Shown piece after piece: positions 36,629 through 48,036 of a stretch of 52,839 nucleotides of DNA. Numbering within the stretch: the first letter of the stretch is position 1; every line of letters begins with the position of its first letter. Made by a program: the position numbers and the translations under genes. This DNA is from an uncultured Spirochaetota bacterium. Its GTDB lineage: Bacteria > Spirochaetota > Spirochaetia > Treponematales > Rectinemataceae. The notes beneath the pieces were generated by a model, which was given only the letters and a program-made list of their open reading frames with translations, had not been told where the DNA came from and did not search any database. The stretch lies in NCBI GenBank assembly GCA_903821875.1, contig CAIJMU010000039.1:1-52839 (forward strand). The letters run 5' to 3'.

Positions 36629-38506
36629 GTGATCGCGCCCAAATCCATAGCCCTCTACAAGAATCGGCCCGCCCTTGTCCTTGAGCGGCTTGGTGACAAG
36701 CTCGACATACGAGTCGAAGACGGCTCCTCGCTGAAGGTGCGCGACAAGGACCTCGAGGAACTCCACCCGGGGCCAGCCACCTCCATGCCGGCGCCCGCCG
36801 AGGGTGGGGACTTCGAGACTGCATGGTCAGTGCTGGCCCCTGGCGAAGGCGAGGAGGGGAGTCCCCAGTCAGCGCGGGAGCTGGCCGAACTCGTGTTTGG
36901 CATGGCCGGCCCTGCCGAAACGCTGGCAGTCTGGCTCGAGGGCCAGCGGGGCCGCGTGTTCAGGGCAGAGGGTGCCGCCCTCGTGCCGCTGTCGCAGGTT
37001 GAACGCGACCGCGAGGGCGAAAAGCGCGCACGGAAAGAGGGGGAGGCTGCCGAGCGTGCAGCCTTTGTCGAGCGGGCCAGGCAGGCATTCAAGAAGCGGG
37101 CCGAGATTCCTCCCCCTGCCTTCGAGGAAGGGGATAGCCGCTTCCTGGCCGAACTCGAGGCCCTCGCCTATGGGAAGGCTGGCAAATGCAAGCTCGCCAC
37201 CGAGATCGGCATTGGTGACAGTCCCGAGGACGCCCATTCCTGGCTTCTGGCGACGGGACGCTGGGACAGGTCAGTGAATCCCCATCCCCGACGCTCGGGC
37301 TGCCCTACGGCTTCGCCCCGGGTCGAGATCGGTCCGGACCTCGGGGATGTCCCGCGACGTGACCTTCGCCATCTGGAATCCTGGGCCATCGACAACGCCT
37401 GGAGCAACGACCCCGACGACGCGATCTCCTGGGACGGCGAAGCGGTCTGGATCCATGTCGCCGATCCTGCCTCTGCCATCCTTCCCGATTGCGCTGCCGA
37501 CAAGGAGGCCTTCGCCCGGGGTCTGACCCTCTATCTTCCGGAACTCACCTCGACGCTTCTCCCGCCCGAGGCCCTCGAGCGCTTTGGACTGGGGCTTGCA
37601 CCGGAGTCGCCGGCCTTATCCTTCCGTGTCGGGCTTTCAGAGGACGGCGCTGTCGCATCGGTGGAAGCTACAGCCTCCATCCTTCGCGTGAGGAGGACGC
37701 ACTATGCCGAGGCCGATGCCATCGCCGACAGCGGCGCAGCCGGGGCGGAGGGTCTCCGGAAGCTCGGACAGATCGCTGAGCTCAGGCAGAGGCGGCGCCT
37801 CGAGAACGGGGCGATCGATATCGAGATTCCTGAGGTGCGGGTCTTTGTCCGCGACGGGGTGATCTCCATCGAGGCCCTTCCGAAGACCCGCTCGAGCGGA
37901 ATTGTCCGTGAGATGATGCTGCTGGCGGGTGAGGCCGCCGCGCGCTGGGCCTTCGAGCGAAAGCTTCCCTTTCCCTACTACAGCCAGGAATCGCCCGGCG
38001 AAGCATCCTCCCTCCCCGAGGGCCTGGCGGGCGAATTCGCCAAGCGCCGCCTCATGCGGGCGGGAATCACCGGGCCGACCCCCGGAGCCCACCGTGGCCT
38101 GGGGCTGCCCTTTTATTCCCAGGCGACGAGCCCCCTCCGGCGCTATGCCGATCTCCTGGCGCACATGCAGATCCGCTCGGCTCTCGCCGGCAGGGAAACC
38201 CTGGACGAGGACGAGGTCATGCGGCGCTCGGCCCTGGCCCAGGCTGCAGGGGCGCCCAATCGCCAGACCGAGCGGGCGAGCCAGGCGCACTGGACCCTCG
38301 CCTGGCTGCTGGGAAACCCTCTCTGGCAGGGTGAGGGCATCATCGTCGGGGCAGCCGGACCTGGAGCCTGGCAGGTCCATGTCCCCTCGCTCGGACTCGA
38401 AACGCGCATGAAGCTTGGAAGCAACCGTGCCTTGAATGGGAGGCTTGCGCTGCGGGTCGCCCGGATCGACCTGCCGCGCCTCGATGTGGGCTTCCAGGAA
38501 TGCTGA
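36629..38506 (+). CDS. RNase II/R family exoribonuclease
   Basis: A 625-residue 3'-5' exoribonuclease that degrades RNA one nucleotide at a time. The RNB catalytic domain spans about residues 245-560. AIDNAWSNDPDDAIS keeps all four metal-binding aspartates (spacing D-x5-D-P-D-D), and TSPLRRYADLLAHMQ is the family's terminal motif. The first 240 residues, instead of two ordinary cold-shock domains, hold a small beta barrel (IALYKNRPALVLERLGDKLDIRVED) and an Arg/Glu-rich helical region; the S1 end is short. The start is GTG 36629 with AAGGAG five bases upstream. The architecture resembles the compact RNase II-like proteins of some bacteria and organelles. Confidence 0.9.
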   Translation: MIAPKSIALYKNRPALVLERLGDKLDIRVEDGSSLKVRDKDLEELHPGPATSMPAPAEGGDFETAWSVLAPGEGEEGSPQSARELAELVFGMAGPAETLAVWLEGQRGRVFRAEGAALVPLSQVERDREGEKRARKEGEAAERAAFVERARQAFKKRAEIPPPAFEEGDSRFLAELEALAYGKAGKCKLATEIGIGDSPEDAHSWLLATGRWDRSVNPHPRRSGCPTASPRVEIGPDLGDVPRRDLRHLESWAIDNAWSNDPDDAISWDGEAVWIHVADPASAILPDCAADKEAFARGLTLYLPELTSTLLPPEALERFGLGLAPESPALSFRVGLSEDGAVASVEATASILRVRRTHYAEADAIADSGAAGAEGLRKLGQIAELRQRRRLENGAIDIEIPEVRVFVRDGVISIEALPKTRSSGIVREMMLLAGEAAARWAFERKLPFPYYSQESPGEASSLPEGLAGEFAKRRLMRAGITGPTPGAHRGLGLPFYSQATSPLRRYADLLAHMQIRSALAGRETLDEDEVMRRSALAQAAGAPNRQTERASQAHWTLAWLLGNPLWQGEGIIVGAAGPGAWQVHVPSLGLETRMKLGSNRALNGRLALRVARIDLPRLDVGFQEC

Positions 38507-38602: not shown

Positions 38603-40909
38603 ATGGGCACGATTCTGAAAACCGGGCGTGTGTTTGGTCTACGAGGTCTATTGATCCTGTTTATGGTCGTGCCGATGGTCGTCGCAGTCTCGGTGGTCGG
38701 GGCCCTGATGTACTTCGACAGCCGCGAGGCCCTGCGACTTGCCACGGAAAGTCTCTTTGTCCAGGTGAACAGCCGGATTGCCGACCGGATCACCGGTTTT
38801 CTGTTGACGGCCCGCACCGTCAATGATTCCAACGCCGAGGCCCTGGCCCAGGGGCATCTCCGGGTCTCCGATCCCGCTGGCATCGAGTCCCATCTGATCG
38901 CCCTCATGCGTTCGCGTCCGCTCATCTCCAGCACCTACGTGGCAAGCCCGGCAGGGGGCCTAGTGGACTCCGGCCGCGACGGACCGGGGGGGCAGGAATA
39001 TGTCATCGAAACCCCTGGTTTTGCCGCCGGACCCTTTGTAAAAAGCGCCATCGATGCCTCCTCATCCAAGGTGGCAACCCTTTTGACGCTCCCCTTCTTC
39101 GACGCGCGTACCCGCCCCTGGTATGGAGCCGCTGTAGTCAGCAGAACCACCATCTGGACCGATGTTTTCGCGCTGTTCTCCGGGCAGGATTCTGCCATTT
39201 CCACGGCTCGGCCGGTCTTCGACAAGGAGGGCAGGCTGATCGCCGTCGTATCGGTGGACCTCTTTCTTTCCCAGATACGGACCTTCCTGGACGGTCTGGG
39301 CCGGGAGGACGGAAGCGTGAATTTCCTCATCGACCGGAAGGGTTTCCTCATCGCTTCCCCGCGCGATACAAGCATCTTCCTCAGTCCGCAGGGGAAAGAT
39401 GCCCCCGTGAGAATGCGTGGCCAGGATAGCAGCGACCCCGTGGTGGCCATGGCCTCGGAAAAAATCGCTTCGAAGGAATCCGCATCGACCTACACATTCA
39501 CCAGCGGCGGCAAGGCCTTCGCAGCCCTCGCCTCGACCCTGTCCGAGCCGGCTGACCTGGGCTGGCGGATAGTCTCGGTTTTTCCCAAGCGTGCCTACAC
39601 CGCTCCCCTCGAGCGCAACCTGAGCGGGCTCGCGCTGATTGCCCTCCTGTCCACAGTCCTCTTTGCCCTTGTCGGCATTTTCAGCACCTCCTACATCGTG
39701 GTTCGCACCCGGCAGTTCTCCTCCTTCGCGGCGGCGGTGGCTGGAGGGGAAAAGGCCATTGACGGTGGAAGGATGCGTCCATCCTCCATACGCGAGATCG
39801 AGGCGATGCGACAGGATTTCCTGGCCATGGAACGGCGCATCGAGGATGGCATCACGAGGCTCAGGGACGAGATCAAGGAGCGCCGCGCCACCGAGGAAAG
39901 GCTCACCGAATCGCAGCATGCCTACGATCGCCTCGCCCGGAACATTCCGGTCGGATTCTACATGCTCAGGACAAGCCCCGAGGGAAGGTACAACTTCACC
40001 TATGTGAGTCCGAGGTTCCGCGAAGTGCTCGGGCTCTCATCAAGTGCCAGCATTACAGGCCCTGAGTCCTACATGCATTTTATCCATCCCTCGGACCTGC
40101 CCGCCTTTCTTGCCGTGCAGGATGAGGCGCTCCGCTTGACAAAGCGCTTCCTCTGGGAGGGAAGGATCCTGGCGGGAGGGGTGGAGCGCCATATCCGCAT
40201 GGAGTCCAATCCCGAGATCCAGGGCAACAGGGACGTCCTCTGGGACGGCGTGGTCTCCGACGTCACCGAGACGCGGCTGGCCTCGGGACGCATCTCGGAG
40301 CTCCTCGCGGAGAAGGAACTCCTCCTCCACGAAGTCCATCACCGGATCAAGAACAACATGTACACCATGACCTCGATGCTGGAGTTCCAGGCCGATATGC
40401 ACGAGGACCCCCGCGTCGCGGAGGTCCTCATGGAGGCCCGCGACCGCCTGGCGAGCATGATGCTCCTCTACAACAAGCTCTACCGCTCGGACGCCATGCT
40501 CGCCACCGATACTGCAAGCTATCTCGGGGACATCGCCGGCCATCTCGAGGACCAGCAGTCGCAGCGTCCGGAGATAGTCCTCGAGAGGAGCCTCCAGTCC
40601 ATAACCCTCGATGTCCGTGTCCTCATGCCCCTGGGCATCATCGTCAACGAGCTAATAACCAATTCGTACAAACATGCCTTCCCGCGGGGAAGGGGTGGCA
40701 GGATACGCCTCTCCCTGGCGGCCGATGGTGACAGGGTCCGCCTGACCGTCGAGGACGACGGTGTCGGGCTGGAAAGCGGCAGCAGGAAGAAGGGCTTTGG
40801 CCGCTTCCTCATCGAAGGACTCTCGAAGCAGATCAGGGGGACGATCGAGGAAGGCGCCCAGAGCGGCAGCAGCTTCAGACTGGTCTTCCCGCGCTCGCAG
40901 GGTAGCTGA
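38603..40909 (+). CDS. Membrane sensor histidine kinase (dCache-PAS-HisKA_2)
   Basis: A 768-residue orphan sensor. TM1 (about 12-36) is followed by an extracytoplasmic double-Cache domain (about 40-330) with TRPWYGAAV and LIAVVSVDLFLSQI, a pattern close to amino-acid-binding dCache sensors though some tyrosines differ. TM2 (about 336-360), a HAMP-like linker and coiled coil, then a PAS domain (about 450-560, FTYVSPRFREVLGLS) follow. The kinase core is of the HisKA_2/HWE type, with EVHHRIKNNM (likely phospho-acceptor His580) and the ATP-site NELITNSYKHAF, DDGVGL. No response regulator lies next to it. The nucleotide cyclase that follows after 72 bases has its own promoter. Confidence 0.9.
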   Translation: MGTILKTGRVFGLRGLLILFMVVPMVVAVSVVGALMYFDSREALRLATESLFVQVNSRIADRITGFLLTARTVNDSNAEALAQGHLRVSDPAGIESHLIALMRSRPLISSTYVASPAGGLVDSGRDGPGGQEYVIETPGFAAGPFVKSAIDASSSKVATLLTLPFFDARTRPWYGAAVVSRTTIWTDVFALFSGQDSAISTARPVFDKEGRLIAVVSVDLFLSQIRTFLDGLGREDGSVNFLIDRKGFLIASPRDTSIFLSPQGKDAPVRMRGQDSSDPVVAMASEKIASKESASTYTFTSGGKAFAALASTLSEPADLGWRIVSVFPKRAYTAPLERNLSGLALIALLSTVLFALVGIFSTSYIVVRTRQFSSFAAAVAGGEKAIDGGRMRPSSIREIEAMRQDFLAMERRIEDGITRLRDEIKERRATEERLTESQHAYDRLARNIPVGFYMLRTSPEGRYNFTYVSPRFREVLGLSSSASITGPESYMHFIHPSDLPAFLAVQDEALRLTKRFLWEGRILAGGVERHIRMESNPEIQGNRDVLWDGVVSDVTETRLASGRISELLAEKELLLHEVHHRIKNNMYTMTSMLEFQADMHEDPRVAEVLMEARDRLASMMLLYNKLYRSDAMLATDTASYLGDIAGHLEDQQSQRPEIVLERSLQSITLDVRVLMPLGIIVNELITNSYKHAFPRGRGGRIRLSLAADGDRVRLTVEDDGVGLESGSRKKGFGRFLIEGLSKQIRGTIEEGAQSGSSFRLVFPRSQGS

Positions 40910-40981: not shown

Positions 40982-43645
40982 ATGGAACAGAAGGACTACC
41001 GACTCGCCGCGATAATGTATACGGACATTTCCGGGTTTTCCCGGATGATGGAACGTGACGAGGCTGGGACGCTCGAGCTCCTCCACTTCCACAACGAGCT
41101 CATCGGGGGCATTGTCGAGAGCCACCACGGCACCATCATCAAGACTATCGGCGACGCCCTCCTCGTAGACTTCCGCAACACGGTGGAGGCCCTGCAGAGC
41201 GCCCTCGAGATCCAGGACCGGCTCTACGTTCACAACAGGGAACGCGCGAAGCTTCCCCTCCTCGTAAGAATCGGGCTCCACCTCGGGGATATCTACTTCT
41301 ACGAGAACGACGCCCTCGGCGAGGGAATCAACATCGCCGCGCGCCTTCAGTCGCTCGCAAGGCCCGGCTGCGTGTGTTTTTCGCAGGATGTCTACAACCA
41401 GGTACTCAACAAGATCGAGTTCCGGGCGGACCGTCTCGGCAAGGTTTCCCTCAAGAACATCACGAAGGAGATCCACGCCTACGAGATCACGACGCCGAAC
41501 GTCGAGTTCGACCCCGATCGGGACAAGCCCCGACCGGGCTACAAGCCCGGCGTCTGGCTTGAGGGCGACGACGGCACGGTGAGGTCGGAGGACGTCTCAG
41601 GTTCGCGCGAAAGCCCTGCCTGGGCCAGTCCGAAGGCTGTCGCCGTCGAAGCCGGGTATGCCCAAGGTCAGCAGCAGGAGCTCCCCGCGGCAGCCCCACC
41701 ACCACAGAAAGTGCCGCCGCCCCAGAGTGAAGCCAAAGCCCACCTGGCGGCCACGGCCCTCCCCCAGGAAGCCGCTCCGACCGGAGCCGGGGTCGCGGTC
41801 GGGGCCGCAGCCTCAGCCAAAAGCGCAGCCTCGGCCGGCAGCGGAGGAGGGGAGGGCGTGGACCGCTCCTACAGCGAGGAAGGCTCACGCAGGCTCCTGA
41901 CGGAGATCCGGAAGGCCATCCTCGAGGATATCCGCAAGGAGGGTCGCCGCCTGTCCGTGGATGAAGCCCGCGAGCGCTATGGTTTCTACGGGGTCGAGGC
42001 CCAGGAGGTCATCGCAGCGATGATGGAGCAGGGATTCCTGCTCCGGTCGCGGAATCCCGGACAGAACTTCGTGAACCCCGAAAAGGGCTGGGGCTTTACC
42101 CTCAATTCCGAGGGTTCCGGCGAAGGCAGGAAGGCAGCCTCGGATCTCGGACGCAGCATCGAGGCTGCGGTCCACGGCATTGTCAGCGAGATCGAGCGAT
42201 CGGTTGAGCGCAACGTAGCCTCTGGCAAGCTTCCCGATGAGTTACGGATAAAACTCAGGGACCTCGACGGGAAGCTGGCAACCAAGGGCGACAGGATCCA
42301 GGCCAAGCTTGAGCGGAAGGGCGAGCGTCTCAAGGCCAGGCTCGAGCGCAAACGCGAAAACGCCCACTACAACAAGGAGACGCAGGCCTGGGACAGGAAG
42401 CTTGACAGCGAGGCAGGCTGGAAGGAAGCGGTGCTGCCCGGCGAGGGCGGCTTTTCCGACTTTGCCGAACGCCTGGCCGACCGCGCGCGGAAGGTCCGGG
42501 GTGGCTTCATCACCCACCTGGCCACCTACCTCGGCGTCAATGGCTTCCTCTGGTTCCTCAACCTGAGCAGCGCCGATTCCTTCCTCTGGGCAGCCATCGT
42601 TTCGGCCGCCTGGGGAATCGGAATCGCGAGCAACGCCGCTTCGGCCATCCGGGCGGGAGCCAAGGCCTCTGATGCCGGAAGCGTGCCCGAACTCAGCGAG
42701 GAGCAGATCGTACTATTCAGGAAGATCGAGCGCACAAAGGACTCCTACGCCATGCATGCGACCTCGGTGGTGTCGGTGTCCTTCCTCCTTGGCCTCATCA
42801 ACCTGCTGACTGGCCCGGAGTTCCTGTGGTTCCTCATCCCTACGGGCGCCCTCCTGTTGTCGCTCATCTCCCACCGTGTCGCCTACGGAATCTCGAAGCC
42901 CCGCCTCGAGCGCGAGTTTGCCGAGGCCCTCGGGGTCAGGGGCAGCTGGAAGAAGGCACTCAAGCGCCAAGGCGCGGCACGGAAGGCGGATGAGAGCCTC
43001 GGTCCCTACGCCGATCTGCTGCGCGAAGCCCAGCAGATAGAAAAAGCCATCCTCGAACTCGCCAAGGATTCTGCCGGAGAAGCTGGTGAGGTCGAGTCCG
43101 TGCTCCGGGACTATGTCGCGCAGGTAAAGCTTCTGGCCGGATCGGCTGTCGATATCGACAGGGTTATCGACTCGATTCCGCGGGACAGCCTGCGCGCCGA
43201 CAAGGAGACCCTCATCCGGAAGGAAGCAGCCTCCGTCAACGAGGGACTCAAGGTCGAATATCGCAAGAACATCGAGGAGATCCAGCGCCAGGAGAGTTCC
43301 TGGGAGGAGCTCGGCAACCAGCGGGAGATAATCGGACTCAGGCTCGGCTCCTCGGTGAACCAGCTCAAGCAGATGAGGATGGATCTGGCCAGGCTGAAGG
43401 CTGCGGGGGATTCCGGCAGGCAGGGCGAACTCAGGACGAGGACAGCCGAGCTTTCGAAGTGGCTCGAGGATCTCAGGAAGGGCTACGACGAAAGCCAGGC
43501 CGATCCCTATGACGAGCTCGAAAAGCAGGCCAGGAAGGCCGAGCTGGAGGGGATGGAGGCCAGGGCCCTGGCCGAACGCGAGGCTGTCGCCCTCCTCGCC
43601 GGAGCGGAGGCGAAGGAAGCCCTGCCCCCCCCAGGGCCAGCCTAG
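40982..43645 (+). CDS. Class III adenylate cyclase fused to two 2TM modules and a coiled coil
   Basis: An 887-residue protein likely to make cAMP. The cyclase domain is at the very N-terminus (about 1-180). AAIMYTDISGFSRMME carries metal Asp15, TIIKTIGDALLVDF the adenine-selecting Lys54 and metal Asp58, and NDALGEGINIAARL the transition-state Asn and Arg. An Ala/Pro linker (about 215-300) precedes a small helical module (about 305-370) with RERYGFYGVEAQEVIAAMMEQGFL. A basic helix (about 420-465, RKGERLKARLERKRE) leads to two 2TM units (about 500-560 and 585-650). A long coiled coil (about 690-875) ends the protein. I do not know this architecture. Membrane insertion follows catalysis in order, the reverse of most receptor cyclases. 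Confidence 0.85.
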   Translation: MEQKDYRLAAIMYTDISGFSRMMERDEAGTLELLHFHNELIGGIVESHHGTIIKTIGDALLVDFRNTVEALQSALEIQDRLYVHNRERAKLPLLVRIGLHLGDIYFYENDALGEGINIAARLQSLARPGCVCFSQDVYNQVLNKIEFRADRLGKVSLKNITKEIHAYEITTPNVEFDPDRDKPRPGYKPGVWLEGDDGTVRSEDVSGSRESPAWASPKAVAVEAGYAQGQQQELPAAAPPPQKVPPPQSEAKAHLAATALPQEAAPTGAGVAVGAAASAKSAASAGSGGGEGVDRSYSEEGSRRLLTEIRKAILEDIRKEGRRLSVDEARERYGFYGVEAQEVIAAMMEQGFLLRSRNPGQNFVNPEKGWGFTLNSEGSGEGRKAASDLGRSIEAAVHGIVSEIERSVERNVASGKLPDELRIKLRDLDGKLATKGDRIQAKLERKGERLKARLERKRENAHYNKETQAWDRKLDSEAGWKEAVLPGEGGFSDFAERLADRARKVRGGFITHLATYLGVNGFLWFLNLSSADSFLWAAIVSAAWGIGIASNAASAIRAGAKASDAGSVPELSEEQIVLFRKIERTKDSYAMHATSVVSVSFLLGLINLLTGPEFLWFLIPTGALLLSLISHRVAYGISKPRLEREFAEALGVRGSWKKALKRQGAARKADESLGPYADLLREAQQIEKAILELAKDSAGEAGEVESVLRDYVAQVKLLAGSAVDIDRVIDSIPRDSLRADKETLIRKEAASVNEGLKVEYRKNIEEIQRQESSWEELGNQREIIGLRLGSSVNQLKQMRMDLARLKAAGDSGRQGELRTRTAELSKWLEDLRKGYDESQADPYDELEKQARKAELEGMEARALAEREAVALLAGAEAKEALPPPGPA

Positions 43646-43709: not shown

Positions 43710-45404
43710 TTATTTCTTCACGAAGACGGTGAAGGCAACTTGGCTCTGGTTGACGAGCGAAACGATGCCGATGCTGAAGTGGCTTGGCGTGAAGGCTGTT
43801 GTTTCCCCCTGGGCGGTGACACTGTTCGGGAAACAGGCCTTCGGGACGACGAGGGTAAAGAGCCCCGAGGCTGCGTCACGGGTCATCTGGCTCACGGGGA
43901 TCTCGAGCATCAGGTGGTTGTTGTTGTAGTAGCCCGCAGGCGGGCTGCCGTTCCAGGTGGAAGTGGCGATGTTCCAGACCTGGCCGCCGCTCGGGCGGTA
44001 GGGAATTATCGAGATGCGGTAGCTTCCCTGGAGGATGGGCTGTCCCATATCGTCCACAGGCGGCTGGAAGCGGATCGTAACGTCGCTGTTGTCGGCTATT
44101 GCGATCGGGGCATTCATGGAACCGGGCACCATAGCGTTCGGGGTGATAAGAGCCTTGTCCATGAGGGCGGTAAAATCCTGCAGCGTCGCCGGATCGCTGC
44201 CTATATAGCGCAGAAGTGGAATGTTGGTAAATACGAAGTTGAGCATCTGGCTGACATAGAGCTTTGTACCGTCTTTTTTCGTGACCTCGAAATTGAAGAG
44301 GTCGCCAGCCTGGAGGTCGGCCTTCTCGCCAACGGGGACGATGAGGTGGTTCTTCCACTGCCTCCCGCCCTGGGGCAGGGCGGGAGGCTGGGGGGTCTCC
44401 ATCAATTGGTAGGCTGGCATGCCACCCATTCCCGCGACCGACCAGAGGACTTGCTGTGAAGGATTGCTGTCGGGTCCGGTCTTGAGGATCGAGACGTAGG
44501 CTGGCATGCTCCGGGTGTCGAGGGCAATGGTCTTGATGGTGGCTGCCTCGCTGTCGTTCGTCACATTGAACCAGAGCTCCAGGATGTACTTGCCCTTGAC
44601 GAACTCCCTCAGCGTTGCAGGTGTCGAATGGTAGAACATCTGATAATCCGAGTCCGTGGGGTTGAGCCAGAAACCGACATCGACCTTGTAGTTCGTGGGC
44701 ATGCCCACTGTCGTCGAATCGGTGTCGAAGTCGTCGAGGATGCCGTCGCCGTCGTCGTCGGCGTCCAGGATGTCGATGAGGCCGTCCTGGTCGCGGTCGT
44801 TGGCCTGACGTGCCGAGATTGTTGTCGACTGGGCGGCCGCCCCCTTTCCGTGGGCGGCAAGTCCTACCGGCGCACCTGCCGCAGTGACGCGCGCGACAAG
44901 GTCGGCGACGCTGTTCAGCCCTTGAACGATTCCACCAGTCTCGGCGAGTCCCGAGGCAGCAACGCGGATATCGCCGAAGTCGACCTTTGCGAGGTTTGTG
45001 CCGAGCGTCATGCCGACGGAGCGGAAGCCGTTGGCTACCTGGTCGGTCTTTTTCATTATGGGGCCAATGGCCCGGCCCGAGGCATCGACGAGGGAAATGA
45101 TGAACTCGCTGCCCTTGAGTTCTTCTGAGATGTCGAGGCTGAAGCTTCCCACCGCATCGGTAAAGGCCCGGATGGTCTGGCTGTTGGCCGAGACTGTCTG
45201 CGCGACAACCATCATGCCCTTATTGACCGTGGAGAAGACAGCGTCCGAATCGATGTTGATCCTGCCGAGGAGGCTCAGGGCCTTGGTCGCCGTGACCTCG
45301 ACCTTGTCAGGGAGGAGACGCGAAATGAGCTGACAGGAGGAAAAAAGGAGTGGCAGGAGGAGGGCCAGGCAGATGGCAGGAAGGGCTCGGAAAGCTGCTC
45401 GCAT
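43710..45404 (-). CDS. Lipoprotein with calcium-binding-type Asp repeats
   Basis: A 564-residue predicted lipoprotein: MRAAFRALPAICLALLLPLLFSSC places the acylated Cys near residue 24. An N-terminal helical region (about 30-205) follows, then a thrombospondin type-3-like Asp-rich segment (about 220-245, DRDQDGLIDILDADDDGDG), which in relatives binds calcium. The long C-terminal part is beta-rich (VGFWLNPTDSDYQMFYHS, LELWFNVTNDSEAATIK, SYRISIIPYRPSGGQVW). ATG 45404 follows GGAGG. It stands alone downstream of the JAMM-DinG gene (130-base gap). I do not recognise a family; a surface or periplasmic structural role is a guess. Confidence 0.72.
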   Translation of the reverse strand: MRAAFRALPAICLALLLPLLFSSCQLISRLLPDKVEVTATKALSLLGRINIDSDAVFSTVNKGMMVVAQTVSANSQTIRAFTDAVGSFSLDISEELKGSEFIISLVDASGRAIGPIMKKTDQVANGFRSVGMTLGTNLAKVDFGDIRVAASGLAETGGIVQGLNSVADLVARVTAAGAPVGLAAHGKGAAAQSTTISARQANDRDQDGLIDILDADDDGDGILDDFDTDSTTVGMPTNYKVDVGFWLNPTDSDYQMFYHSTPATLREFVKGKYILELWFNVTNDSEAATIKTIALDTRSMPAYVSILKTGPDSNPSQQVLWSVAGMGGMPAYQLMETPQPPALPQGGRQWKNHLIVPVGEKADLQAGDLFNFEVTKKDGTKLYVSQMLNFVFTNIPLLRYIGSDPATLQDFTALMDKALITPNAMVPGSMNAPIAIADNSDVTIRFQPPVDDMGQPILQGSYRISIIPYRPSGGQVWNIATSTWNGSPPAGYYNNNHLMLEIPVSQMTRDAASGLFTLVVPKACFPNSVTAQGETTAFTPSHFSIGIVSLVNQSQVAFTVFVKK

Positions 45405-45534
45405 CGGATACCTCCGAGTAAGGATGCAGCGATTGTAGAGGAGTTTTGGGGGAGGACACAAGGGCGTAGACCGGCATCTGGACTGGCCCTCGCCGGCTGG
45501 GCTCCCTGTCGCCGGTCGATACCCGCTCCGTAGC

Positions 45535-48036
45535 CTACCAGTCAAACAGGAATTTCCTCACAAGTGGGACGATCTCCGAAAGCTTCGAGGACTGGAGGCG
45601 GCACTCGGGCAGGCTCTGGATGAAGAGCCCGCCGTAGCGCTTCTTGACGAGGCGGCTGTCGAGGATGACGACGGCGCCCCGGTCTTCGGAGTGGCGTATG
45701 AGGCGGCCGAAGCCCTGCTTGAGACGGATGACGGCCTCGGGGAGGCTGATCTCCATGAAGGCATTGCCGCCCCTCCGTTCGCAGGCCTCGCTCCTGGCTA
45801 GTTGCACGGGGTCGGTGGGGACGCGGAAGGGCAACTTGGTAATTATGACGAGTGAAAGGGTCTCGCCGGGGGCGTCGACTCCTTCCCAGAAGGAATCCGT
45901 GGCGAAGAGCACGCTCGAGATGTCCGTGCGGAAGGCTTCGAGGAGGCGGCTCCGCTCGTCGTCGCCCTGACGGAGGCCGGTGATGCCCATGGCGTCCAGC
46001 GCGGGCTTGGCGACCTCCCAGGCTGCCTTGAGGACCTCGTAGCTCGTGAACAGGACGAGGGCGCGGCCCTGGCTCGCTGTCAGGAGCTCGACGATGGCGG
46101 CGTTGACGTAGGCCCGCCAGGAGGGTGCGTCCGGCAGGGGTGCCTCGGCGTCGACGCAGAGGAGGGCATTGGTACGAAAGGGAAAGGGCGAGGCGTAGGT
46201 CGCCGCGCGGAAGCGGATGCCCTCGGCCTCGTCATCGTCTCGGGGCCTGCCGGCTTCGCGCAGCTGCCTGGCGTCGCGGAGGCCGACCCGGCCCTTCCAG
46301 AAGTCAAAGCTCTCACCGACGGAAAGGGTCGCCGAGGCGCAGATCACCGAGCGGAACTTGGTGAAGACTGCCTCCTCCATGATCTCCGTGATGTCCAGGG
46401 GGCTTTCGACGCAGGTGACAAAGGTCTCGCCCCCGCTGGTCCGGTTTTTTTCGACCCAGTAGACCTTTTCGGGGCTCGAATCAAAGTCCCAGAAGGCGGC
46501 CGCGACGGTGGCGGTCTCGGTGATGCGACGGAGGGCGAGCTTGGCCTCGAAGACGACGCGCTCCTCGGAGAGCTTGTCCGGCGCCTCGTCGAGGGCGTCG
46601 CGGACAATTTCCCCGACGGTGAGGAAGGCTTTTTCGAGGGCTGCCAGCGGTTCGAGGAGGGCCTCGGTGGCCAGGGAACTCCGCTCGGTGAGCCGGAAGT
46701 GCCGTTCTCGGTCGGGAAACAAAAGGAGGGCTTTTTCGTCGAGGCGGTTGATGGCAGAGCGCGCCGTGGCGAGGGCAGCGGGAAGGGAGTCCAACCGAGC
46801 CCGGGGAAATCCAGGCAATTCCAATAGTTTCGGGATGAGGCCGAAGCTCCGTCCCCTGAAGCCGCGCTGGAGGCGTGACAGGCGCTTCTGGAGGCTGAAC
46901 CTGTTGAGCTCCGAGGAGAAGAAGTCGGTAGCGCTCGACTCCACCGCGTGGGCTTCGTCCATGACCAGGACCTGGAAGGGCGGGAGGACTACGGTGCCCT
47001 CGTAGCCGGCTCCGTTCATGCGTGCGGCAACGTCGGAAAACAGGATGTGGTGGTTGGCGACGATGATCTGGGCATCCGAGGCCTCGCGCTTCATGCGGAG
47101 GACAAAGCAGGCTTCGCGGTCGGAGCAGCGGAGGCCCGTACAGGAATCGGCGTCAGAGGCCACGCGGGTCCAGGTCGACTCCTCGGGCCAGAACGAGAGG
47201 TCGGCGCGGTCGCCAGTCGCCGTCGTCTTGGCCCAGCCTTCGATACGGCGGAGTGGATGCTCTTTCCCGCCCTCTCCGAGGTCAAGGAGGAGGGCCTCCT
47301 CGTCGATGGCTTCGCGCAGCTTGGTAATGCAGAGGTAATTGCCCCGGCCTTTTACGAGGACAGCCTTGGTCTGCTTCCTGAAGAGGCGCTGGACGATGGG
47401 TATGTCCTTGTCGACGAGCTGGCGCTGGAGGTTGATGGTCGCCGTGGAGATGACCACCCGCTCGTTGTTGCGGAGGGCCCAGGCGAAACATGGTACTAAA
47501 TAGGCGAAGGATTTTCCGACACCGGTACCGGCCTCCGCCGCGAGGATCTCGCCACAATTGAGCGAGTCGACGATGTCGCGCACGAGGCGGACCTGGCTTG
47601 GACGCGGTTCGAAGCTCTCGATGAGACCGGAGAGCTTTCCCCCGGAGTCGAGGACGCCTGAGATCTCGTCGGCGTCGAGCATCACCAGGGAGCGTTTCCG
47701 CACCGGCTCCGCCACGACGTAGACCTCGGTAACCGCGTTGTCGACAATGGCAAAGCCTACACCGCGCGCGCCGAGCTCCGAGGCTATCGAGAGGTCGGGA
47801 TCGGAGGGGAGGAGGAGCCCTGAGGGATGGTTGTGGATGACCAGGTCGCCCCGGTCGAGGAAGCCCTCGAGGGCGGGCACCGCGCTTTTATGGCCGCGGG
47901 CGGCTACGATGATTTCCGCTACAAGACCCTCTTCGTCGAGTCGGCCGGCTGCAAAGACCTCGTTCCCATCTGCGCCTTCCACCTCCCTGCGGAAGGCTCG
48001 GGCAGCCGCTTCGGTAAAGCGTTCGAGGGCCTTCAT
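45535..48036 (-). CDS. dinG: DinG-like Fe-S helicase with N-terminal JAMM (RadC-like) domain
   Basis: An 833-residue fusion. Residues about 1-115 form a JAB/MPN domain with the complete zinc motif HNHPSGLLLPSDPD (His68, His70, Ser78, Asp81, spacing H-x-H-x7-S-x2-D) and a candidate catalytic Glu26, closest in wording to RadC. From about residue 140 a superfamily 2 XPD/DinG helicase follows: Walker A EAGTGVGKS (168-176), four cysteines of a probable Fe-S cluster (GNYLC, then C-x5-C-x5-C in CTGLRCSDREACF), DEAH in VLVMDEAHAVES, and C-terminal QGFGRLIRHSEDRG. DinG proteins unwind R-loops and damaged DNA. The usual N-terminal exonuclease of some DinG proteins is replaced by JAMM. Its ATG shares one base with the upstream stop (TGATG). 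Confidence 0.88.
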   Translation of the reverse strand: MKALERFTEAAARAFRREVEGADGNEVFAAGRLDEEGLVAEIIVAARGHKSAVPALEGFLDRGDLVIHNHPSGLLLPSDPDLSIASELGARGVGFAIVDNAVTEVYVVAEPVRKRSLVMLDADEISGVLDSGGKLSGLIESFEPRPSQVRLVRDIVDSLNCGEILAAEAGTGVGKSFAYLVPCFAWALRNNERVVISTATINLQRQLVDKDIPIVQRLFRKQTKAVLVKGRGNYLCITKLREAIDEEALLLDLGEGGKEHPLRRIEGWAKTTATGDRADLSFWPEESTWTRVASDADSCTGLRCSDREACFVLRMKREASDAQIIVANHHILFSDVAARMNGAGYEGTVVLPPFQVLVMDEAHAVESSATDFFSSELNRFSLQKRLSRLQRGFRGRSFGLIPKLLELPGFPRARLDSLPAALATARSAINRLDEKALLLFPDRERHFRLTERSSLATEALLEPLAALEKAFLTVGEIVRDALDEAPDKLSEERVVFEAKLALRRITETATVAAAFWDFDSSPEKVYWVEKNRTSGGETFVTCVESPLDITEIMEEAVFTKFRSVICASATLSVGESFDFWKGRVGLRDARQLREAGRPRDDDEAEGIRFRAATYASPFPFRTNALLCVDAEAPLPDAPSWRAYVNAAIVELLTASQGRALVLFTSYEVLKAAWEVAKPALDAMGITGLRQGDDERSRLLEAFRTDISSVLFATDSFWEGVDAPGETLSLVIITKLPFRVPTDPVQLARSEACERRGGNAFMEISLPEAVIRLKQGFGRLIRHSEDRGAVVILDSRLVKKRYGGLFIQSLPECRLQSSKLSEIVPLVRKFLFDW

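Follow-up and report, generated by a model that had tools for sequence, protein, structure and literature searches.

What does a bacterium use a class III cyclase for when the same chain continues into membrane hairpins and a long helical region, and why is that second half kept where the cyclase is dead? The question is raised by a gene in the window (the whole stretch of 52,839 nucleotides analyzed here), which comes from a 4.68-Mb genome (193 contigs) with spirochaete relatives. Our answer, to which we assign a probability of about 0.68, is that the gene encodes a class III adenylate cyclase anchored in the membrane and joined to a conserved scaffold that has a function of its own. The open reading frame is intact, encodes a single protein and is organized as follows:

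40982..43645, + strand: whole gene, 887 aa plus stop (ORF list, Pfam, relatives alignment, AlphaFold model)
40982..41515, + strand: class III cyclase catalytic domain, residues 1-178 (Pfam, alignments with relatives, 3mr7 and Ma1120, Foldseek)
41558..41869, + strand: disordered linker, residues 193-296, rich in Ala, Pro and Gly and varying among relatives (pLDDT <50, alignment)
41876..42028, + strand: three-helix module, residues 299-349, with the motif GRRLSVDEA..RYG..GVEA.EVIA (pLDDT 91-95, relatives)
42134..42409, + strand: helices 385-413 and 419-476 (alignment, model, hydropathy; low confidence, pLDDT ~60)
42452..42682, + strand: first 2TM hairpin, residues 491-567 (PF13239 at 503-554, hydropathy)
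42698..42928, + strand: second 2TM hairpin, residues 573-649 (second Pfam 2TM stretch, modelled helices, relatives' hydropathy)
42947..43615, + strand: helical C-terminal region, residues 656-878 (alignment, two AlphaFold models)

The order of cyclase, linker, three-helix module, basic helix, two 2TM hairpins and helical C-terminal region is kept in about 30 relatives and is therefore not a chance reading. The ATG at 40982 is the likely start because the relatives' alignment begins at MEQKDYRLAAI; the same alignment speaks against a longer start at GTG 40940, 42 bases upstream. The layout given in the original prediction (cyclase, linker, helical module, basic helix and two hairpins) matches the Pfam results and the AlphaFold model except in the C-terminal part. 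The full-length model was built from a 42-sequence alignment and has a mean pLDDT of 77 and a pTM of 0.42, so that the relative arrangement of its domains is not trustworthy.

Class III cyclases carry out catalysis at a dimer interface, with two metal-binding aspartates and an Asn and Arg from the partner. Residues 3-169 of the window protein match Pfam Guanylate_cyc (PF00211) with an E-value of 1e-13 and 51.6 bits against a cut-off of 21.9. Foldseek aligned the domain with 3mr7 (E 5.7e-13, TM 0.86-0.88 of the target), and the cyclase fold was modelled over residues 1-178 with a pLDDT mostly above 90. In the alignments with relatives, 3mr7 and Ma1120, all six catalytic positions are filled, namely by D15 and D58 (metal), K54 and E114 (substrate), and N117 and R121 (transition state). 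In the ATP-selecting pair, the lysine is present and a Glu stands where Asp or Thr is usual; Asp also occurs at position 114 within the family. To judge from its residues, this is a class III cyclase domain of the ordinary type, predicted to carry the full set for cAMP synthesis. The original reading of a putatively membrane-tethered class III cyclase, with an N-terminal and apparently intact enzyme, is supported.

Of 39 relatives, 26 have the three-helix module, in a single copy per genome, and most dead-cyclase relatives retain it; on sequence impression only, it may be HTH-like. Helix 385-413 contains a conserved IE..V.GIV.EIE stretch, and helix 419-476 is basic and variable. Two stretches of the window protein are recognized by Pfam 2TM (PF13239; 50.8 bits against a curated cut-off of 24.8), which was also found in all 21 family members scanned, and this gene is the only one of the 2TM family in the window's own genome. 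Four long helices were modelled with confidence (491-530, 536-567, 573-610, and 618-649). Hydropathy is modest for membrane helices; for most relatives it points to three or four membrane segments, in agreement with the AlphaFold helices.

The C-terminal region had been described as a coiled coil of 185 residues; AlphaFold models about six helices instead of one rod (674-695, 701-731, 734-750, 754-808, 813-839, and 842-878). The large assemblies suggested to form through this coiled coil are speculative, given a region modelled as several helices and without a clear match among solved structures. The longest, of 55 residues, carries a conserved SSVNQLKQM..D.AR motif, and a second model of residues 485-855 agrees with the full-length one. 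No Pfam family covers this region consistently. For the membrane and C-terminal part, Foldseek found no solved fold at E-values up to 0.001, while VIA-align returned generic helical bundles with Z up to 10.5, the range expected for helical models. PDB sequence searches with this part and with the three-helix module gave chance-like matches only.

A whole-protein search of 59 relatives produced matches in 50 genomes, many through unrelated cyclases, and about 30 of them have the family architecture. The family thus counted has about 30 relatives (put at about 30 genera) in the same order and elsewhere in Spirochaetota and is usually single-copy. A profile of the membrane and C-terminal part was found in 36 of 393 Spirochaetota genomes (E up to 1e-5), almost always once per genome, the weakest hits being short matches to 2TM only; this part was absent from all f3 genomes (same order) among those listed. 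Most of the named carriers are MAGs that bear the label Spirochaetaceae, Spirochaetales or Treponema; a further one is a Gracilinema caldarium MAG (L089), which encodes an intact member. The module, membrane and C-terminal parts are conserved in the order and beyond it.

In the distant genome G407, the two 2TM hairpins and the C-terminal region form a 350-residue protein (L183:5390-6439, - strand) that has neither cyclase nor three-helix module; its gene lies downstream of an RlmN-like gene. In genome G127, the same C-terminal helical region is located behind other N-terminal membrane segments (L180:4186-5028 and L181:1265-2449, both - strand). The stand-alone protein, the G127 proteins and the dead members described below argue for an independent unit made up of the membrane and C-terminal half. 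Judged from these comparisons, what accompanies the cyclase (three-helix module, four predicted membrane helices and helical C-terminal region) is both conserved and separable.

The proportions of intact and dead members were taken from the unselected sample of relatives only, with ‘dead’ judged from the residues, because the other search used catalytic-motif patterns and is biased to intact cyclases. Twenty members of this sample, including the window protein, keep all six positions (D or E at 114). Eleven others (L042-L046, L048-L050, L052, L054, and L055) have lost at least two catalytic positions, or the catalytic Arg with its surroundings. L027 (genome G002) has a single change, N117T, which could be a tolerated substitution or an assembly error. 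L051 (genome G046) has no cyclase at all, nor any remnant of one in the surrounding ORFs, and keeps the scaffold. In a tree made from non-catalytic columns only, ten broken rows group with L047 (whose cyclase is truncated where its contig ends) in a clade of 11 rows, from the same family as the window, with 100% SH-aLRT, and L046 (from another family) and L027 are placed among intact members. By the starred branches of this tree, the broken label must have changed four times or more, and one of these changes involves an uncertain long-branch row (L109). The module, membrane part and C-terminal region remain in the 11-row clade, in L046 and in the marginal case L027.

The broken domains of the clade are still homologous to the family's own cyclase model (42-113 bits). 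Those scanned fall below the Pfam cut-off, so that routine annotation would call these proteins 2TM proteins. For dead members (L048, L049, L050, L055; L043, L054), Nei-Gojobori dN/dS over residues 1-170 was 0.105-0.141, mostly no higher than in the membrane and C-terminal parts, with dS of 0.4 or more; these figures are rough because some synonymous distances are near saturation. By this measure, the dead cyclase domains are apparently under purifying selection.

Genomes with dead members are also poor in other cAMP machinery. The window's genome has 29 matches to class III cyclase domains and 17 to cNMP-binding domains. The medians for the two are 14 and 17 in the 20 intact-member genomes vs 2 and 2 in the 11 dead-clade genomes; per megabase, cyclases amount to 4.0 vs 0.83 and cNMP-binding domains to 4.9 vs 0.71. 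The Mann-Whitney p for intact vs dead genomes (2e-6) ignores shared ancestry and is not independent evidence. Genome size is not the full explanation for the smaller network: the intact G010, of 2.7 Mb, carries 8 cyclases and 14 cNMP-binding domains, the dead G019, of 3.3 Mb, 2 of each. Outside the clade, G057, G046, and G002 show the same trend less strongly. That the cAMP machinery shrinks alongside a dead cyclase suggests a connection of enzyme decay with network size that can be tested.

These counts could mean that the protein is an ordinary cAMP-producing cyclase with its C-terminal half as a mere anchor, the dead members being decaying copies on their way to loss. Such an account would also fit the broken fragments (L056) and the genomes from the same genera or family that gave no match in the family search (G007, G022, and G024). 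We nevertheless consider it unlikely, as the dead domains have a dN/dS of about 0.11-0.14, mostly not above that of the other parts at dS of 0.4 or more, several genera preserve their fold and length, and a cyclase-free version exists.

Two genes upstream of the cyclase in the window suggest further explanations:

36629..38506, + strand: RNase II-type (RNB) exoribonuclease, conserved at the upstream side in relatives (Pfam RNB, 3.9e-50)
38603..40909, + strand: dCache-PAS-HisKA_2 histidine kinase, between the RNB gene and the cyclase (Pfam, neighbourhood comparison)

In 28 other loci, an RNB gene precedes the family's gene in the same orientation, as a rule by no more than 200 bp (the exceptions are L049, with a mis-set ORF start, and L056, a broken gene). 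It adjoins intact and dead cyclases alike, the dead-clade members being located at the same locus behind it. This might reflect a functional link, i.e., RNA turnover at the membrane with cAMP as one control input, but the upstream neighbour in Gracilinema-type and more distant members is radA-like instead, so that inherited gene order explains the adjacency equally well; we regard the link as improbable. Gracilinema-type loci have a stand-alone response regulator directly downstream (L041:7293-7706, - strand; counterparts in L051, L072, L089, and L090), and the cyclase gene of L087 is followed by one for a chemoreceptor-type protein that contains HAMP and MCPsignal domains. None of these neighbours is universal. 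Downstream in the window, a 611-residue ORF (43713-45545, - strand) with a lipoprotein-like N-terminal region has no Pfam match and is absent near the relatives' loci.

In the window, the RNB gene and the cyclase are 2.4 kb apart because the histidine kinase lies between them. The kinase had been noted as an orphan without effector gene nearby, and indeed the window's contig contains no cNMP-binding domain and no response regulator; the whole genome has 127 receiver-domain matches. Kinase relatives were found near no other family member in the loci examined. The closest relative from the same genus (44% identity) is located on contig C326 and the cyclase of that genome on contig C297. The kinase is a local insertion that, among the loci examined, occurs only in the window's lineage. 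That kinase and cyclase form a two-component-like unit, with the kinase as ligand sensor and regulator of the cyclase scaffold, is very improbable: the two genes share a strand with a gap of 72 bp and the kinase has no response regulator on its contig, but the pair is not conserved, the kinase is missing from this place in the same genus and elsewhere, and Pfam finds no receiver domain in the cyclase.

For the membrane-anchored cyclase on a scaffold with its own function, we propose that the membrane scaffold dimerises and thereby would position two catalytic domains on long flexible linkers; these would pair in the cytoplasm and make cAMP at the membrane. The scaffold may set activity or location through its C-terminal region, and the cAMP would reach some of the cell's many cNMP-binding proteins. 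As the protein has no large periplasmic domain, the signal more probably comes from the membrane state, or from a partner of the C-terminal region in the cytoplasm, than from an extracellular ligand. Since lineages with a dead or missing cyclase retain the scaffold, the scaffold's function would be independent of catalysis.

A dead cyclase fold might still serve as a binding or dimerising part; that the dead domain has retained a non-catalytic function is a tentative reading, which we put somewhat below even odds. Enzymes that have lost catalysis and are retained have been well studied among kinases and proteases, and much less among bacterial class III cyclases. With similar reserve, we suggest a stronger reading, in which the family is primarily a spirochaete membrane scaffold whose cyclase has turned, more than once, into a selected non-catalytic part binding nucleotide or protein. 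It would then be a bacterial family of class III pseudo-cyclases in which living and dead members share one locus. Catalysis was lost mainly in one clade, so that few independent events carry the argument for a scaffold with its own function. The presence of intact and dead versions at the same locus in related species, plus cyclase-free versions, makes the two roles separable by comparison.

Among known systems, the nearest solved relatives are 3mr7 (Silicibacter pomeroyi) and Ma1120 (Mycobacterium avium), which have the catalytic fold, the metal aspartates and the substrate lysine in common with the window protein. Both entries are isolated catalytic domains, whereas the domain in the window protein is fused to the 2TM-2TM helical scaffold. 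Leptospira LprA is a light-driven spirochaete adenylyl cyclase, and its cAMP was shown experimentally to control motility (PMC9043183). Both are spirochaete cyclases, with cAMP synthesis predicted for the window protein, whose Pfam scan suggests no photosensor. In proteins from proteobacteria, Lindowbacteria, archaea and others (L107-L132), a cyclase of related sequence comes first as in the window protein. Most of these contain TPR or AAA/NB-ARC parts and none of the ten scanned has a 2TM match, whereas the window protein has no TPR match (Pfam, E up to 1). The ‘unusual domain order’ of the original prediction thus does not extend to the position of the cyclase, which is N-terminal in the nearest non-spirochaete cyclases too, and holds for the two 2TM hairpins with the helical C-terminus. 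From other Pfam 2TM proteins (PF13239), the window protein differs by its tandem hairpins and long conserved helical C-terminal region. A search of the open-access literature found no description of this architecture, and within the literature searched the cyclase with tandem 2TM hairpins and a conserved helical region is a new combination. What sets the family apart is this 2TM-2TM helical C-terminal part, plus its persistence after the death of the cyclase.
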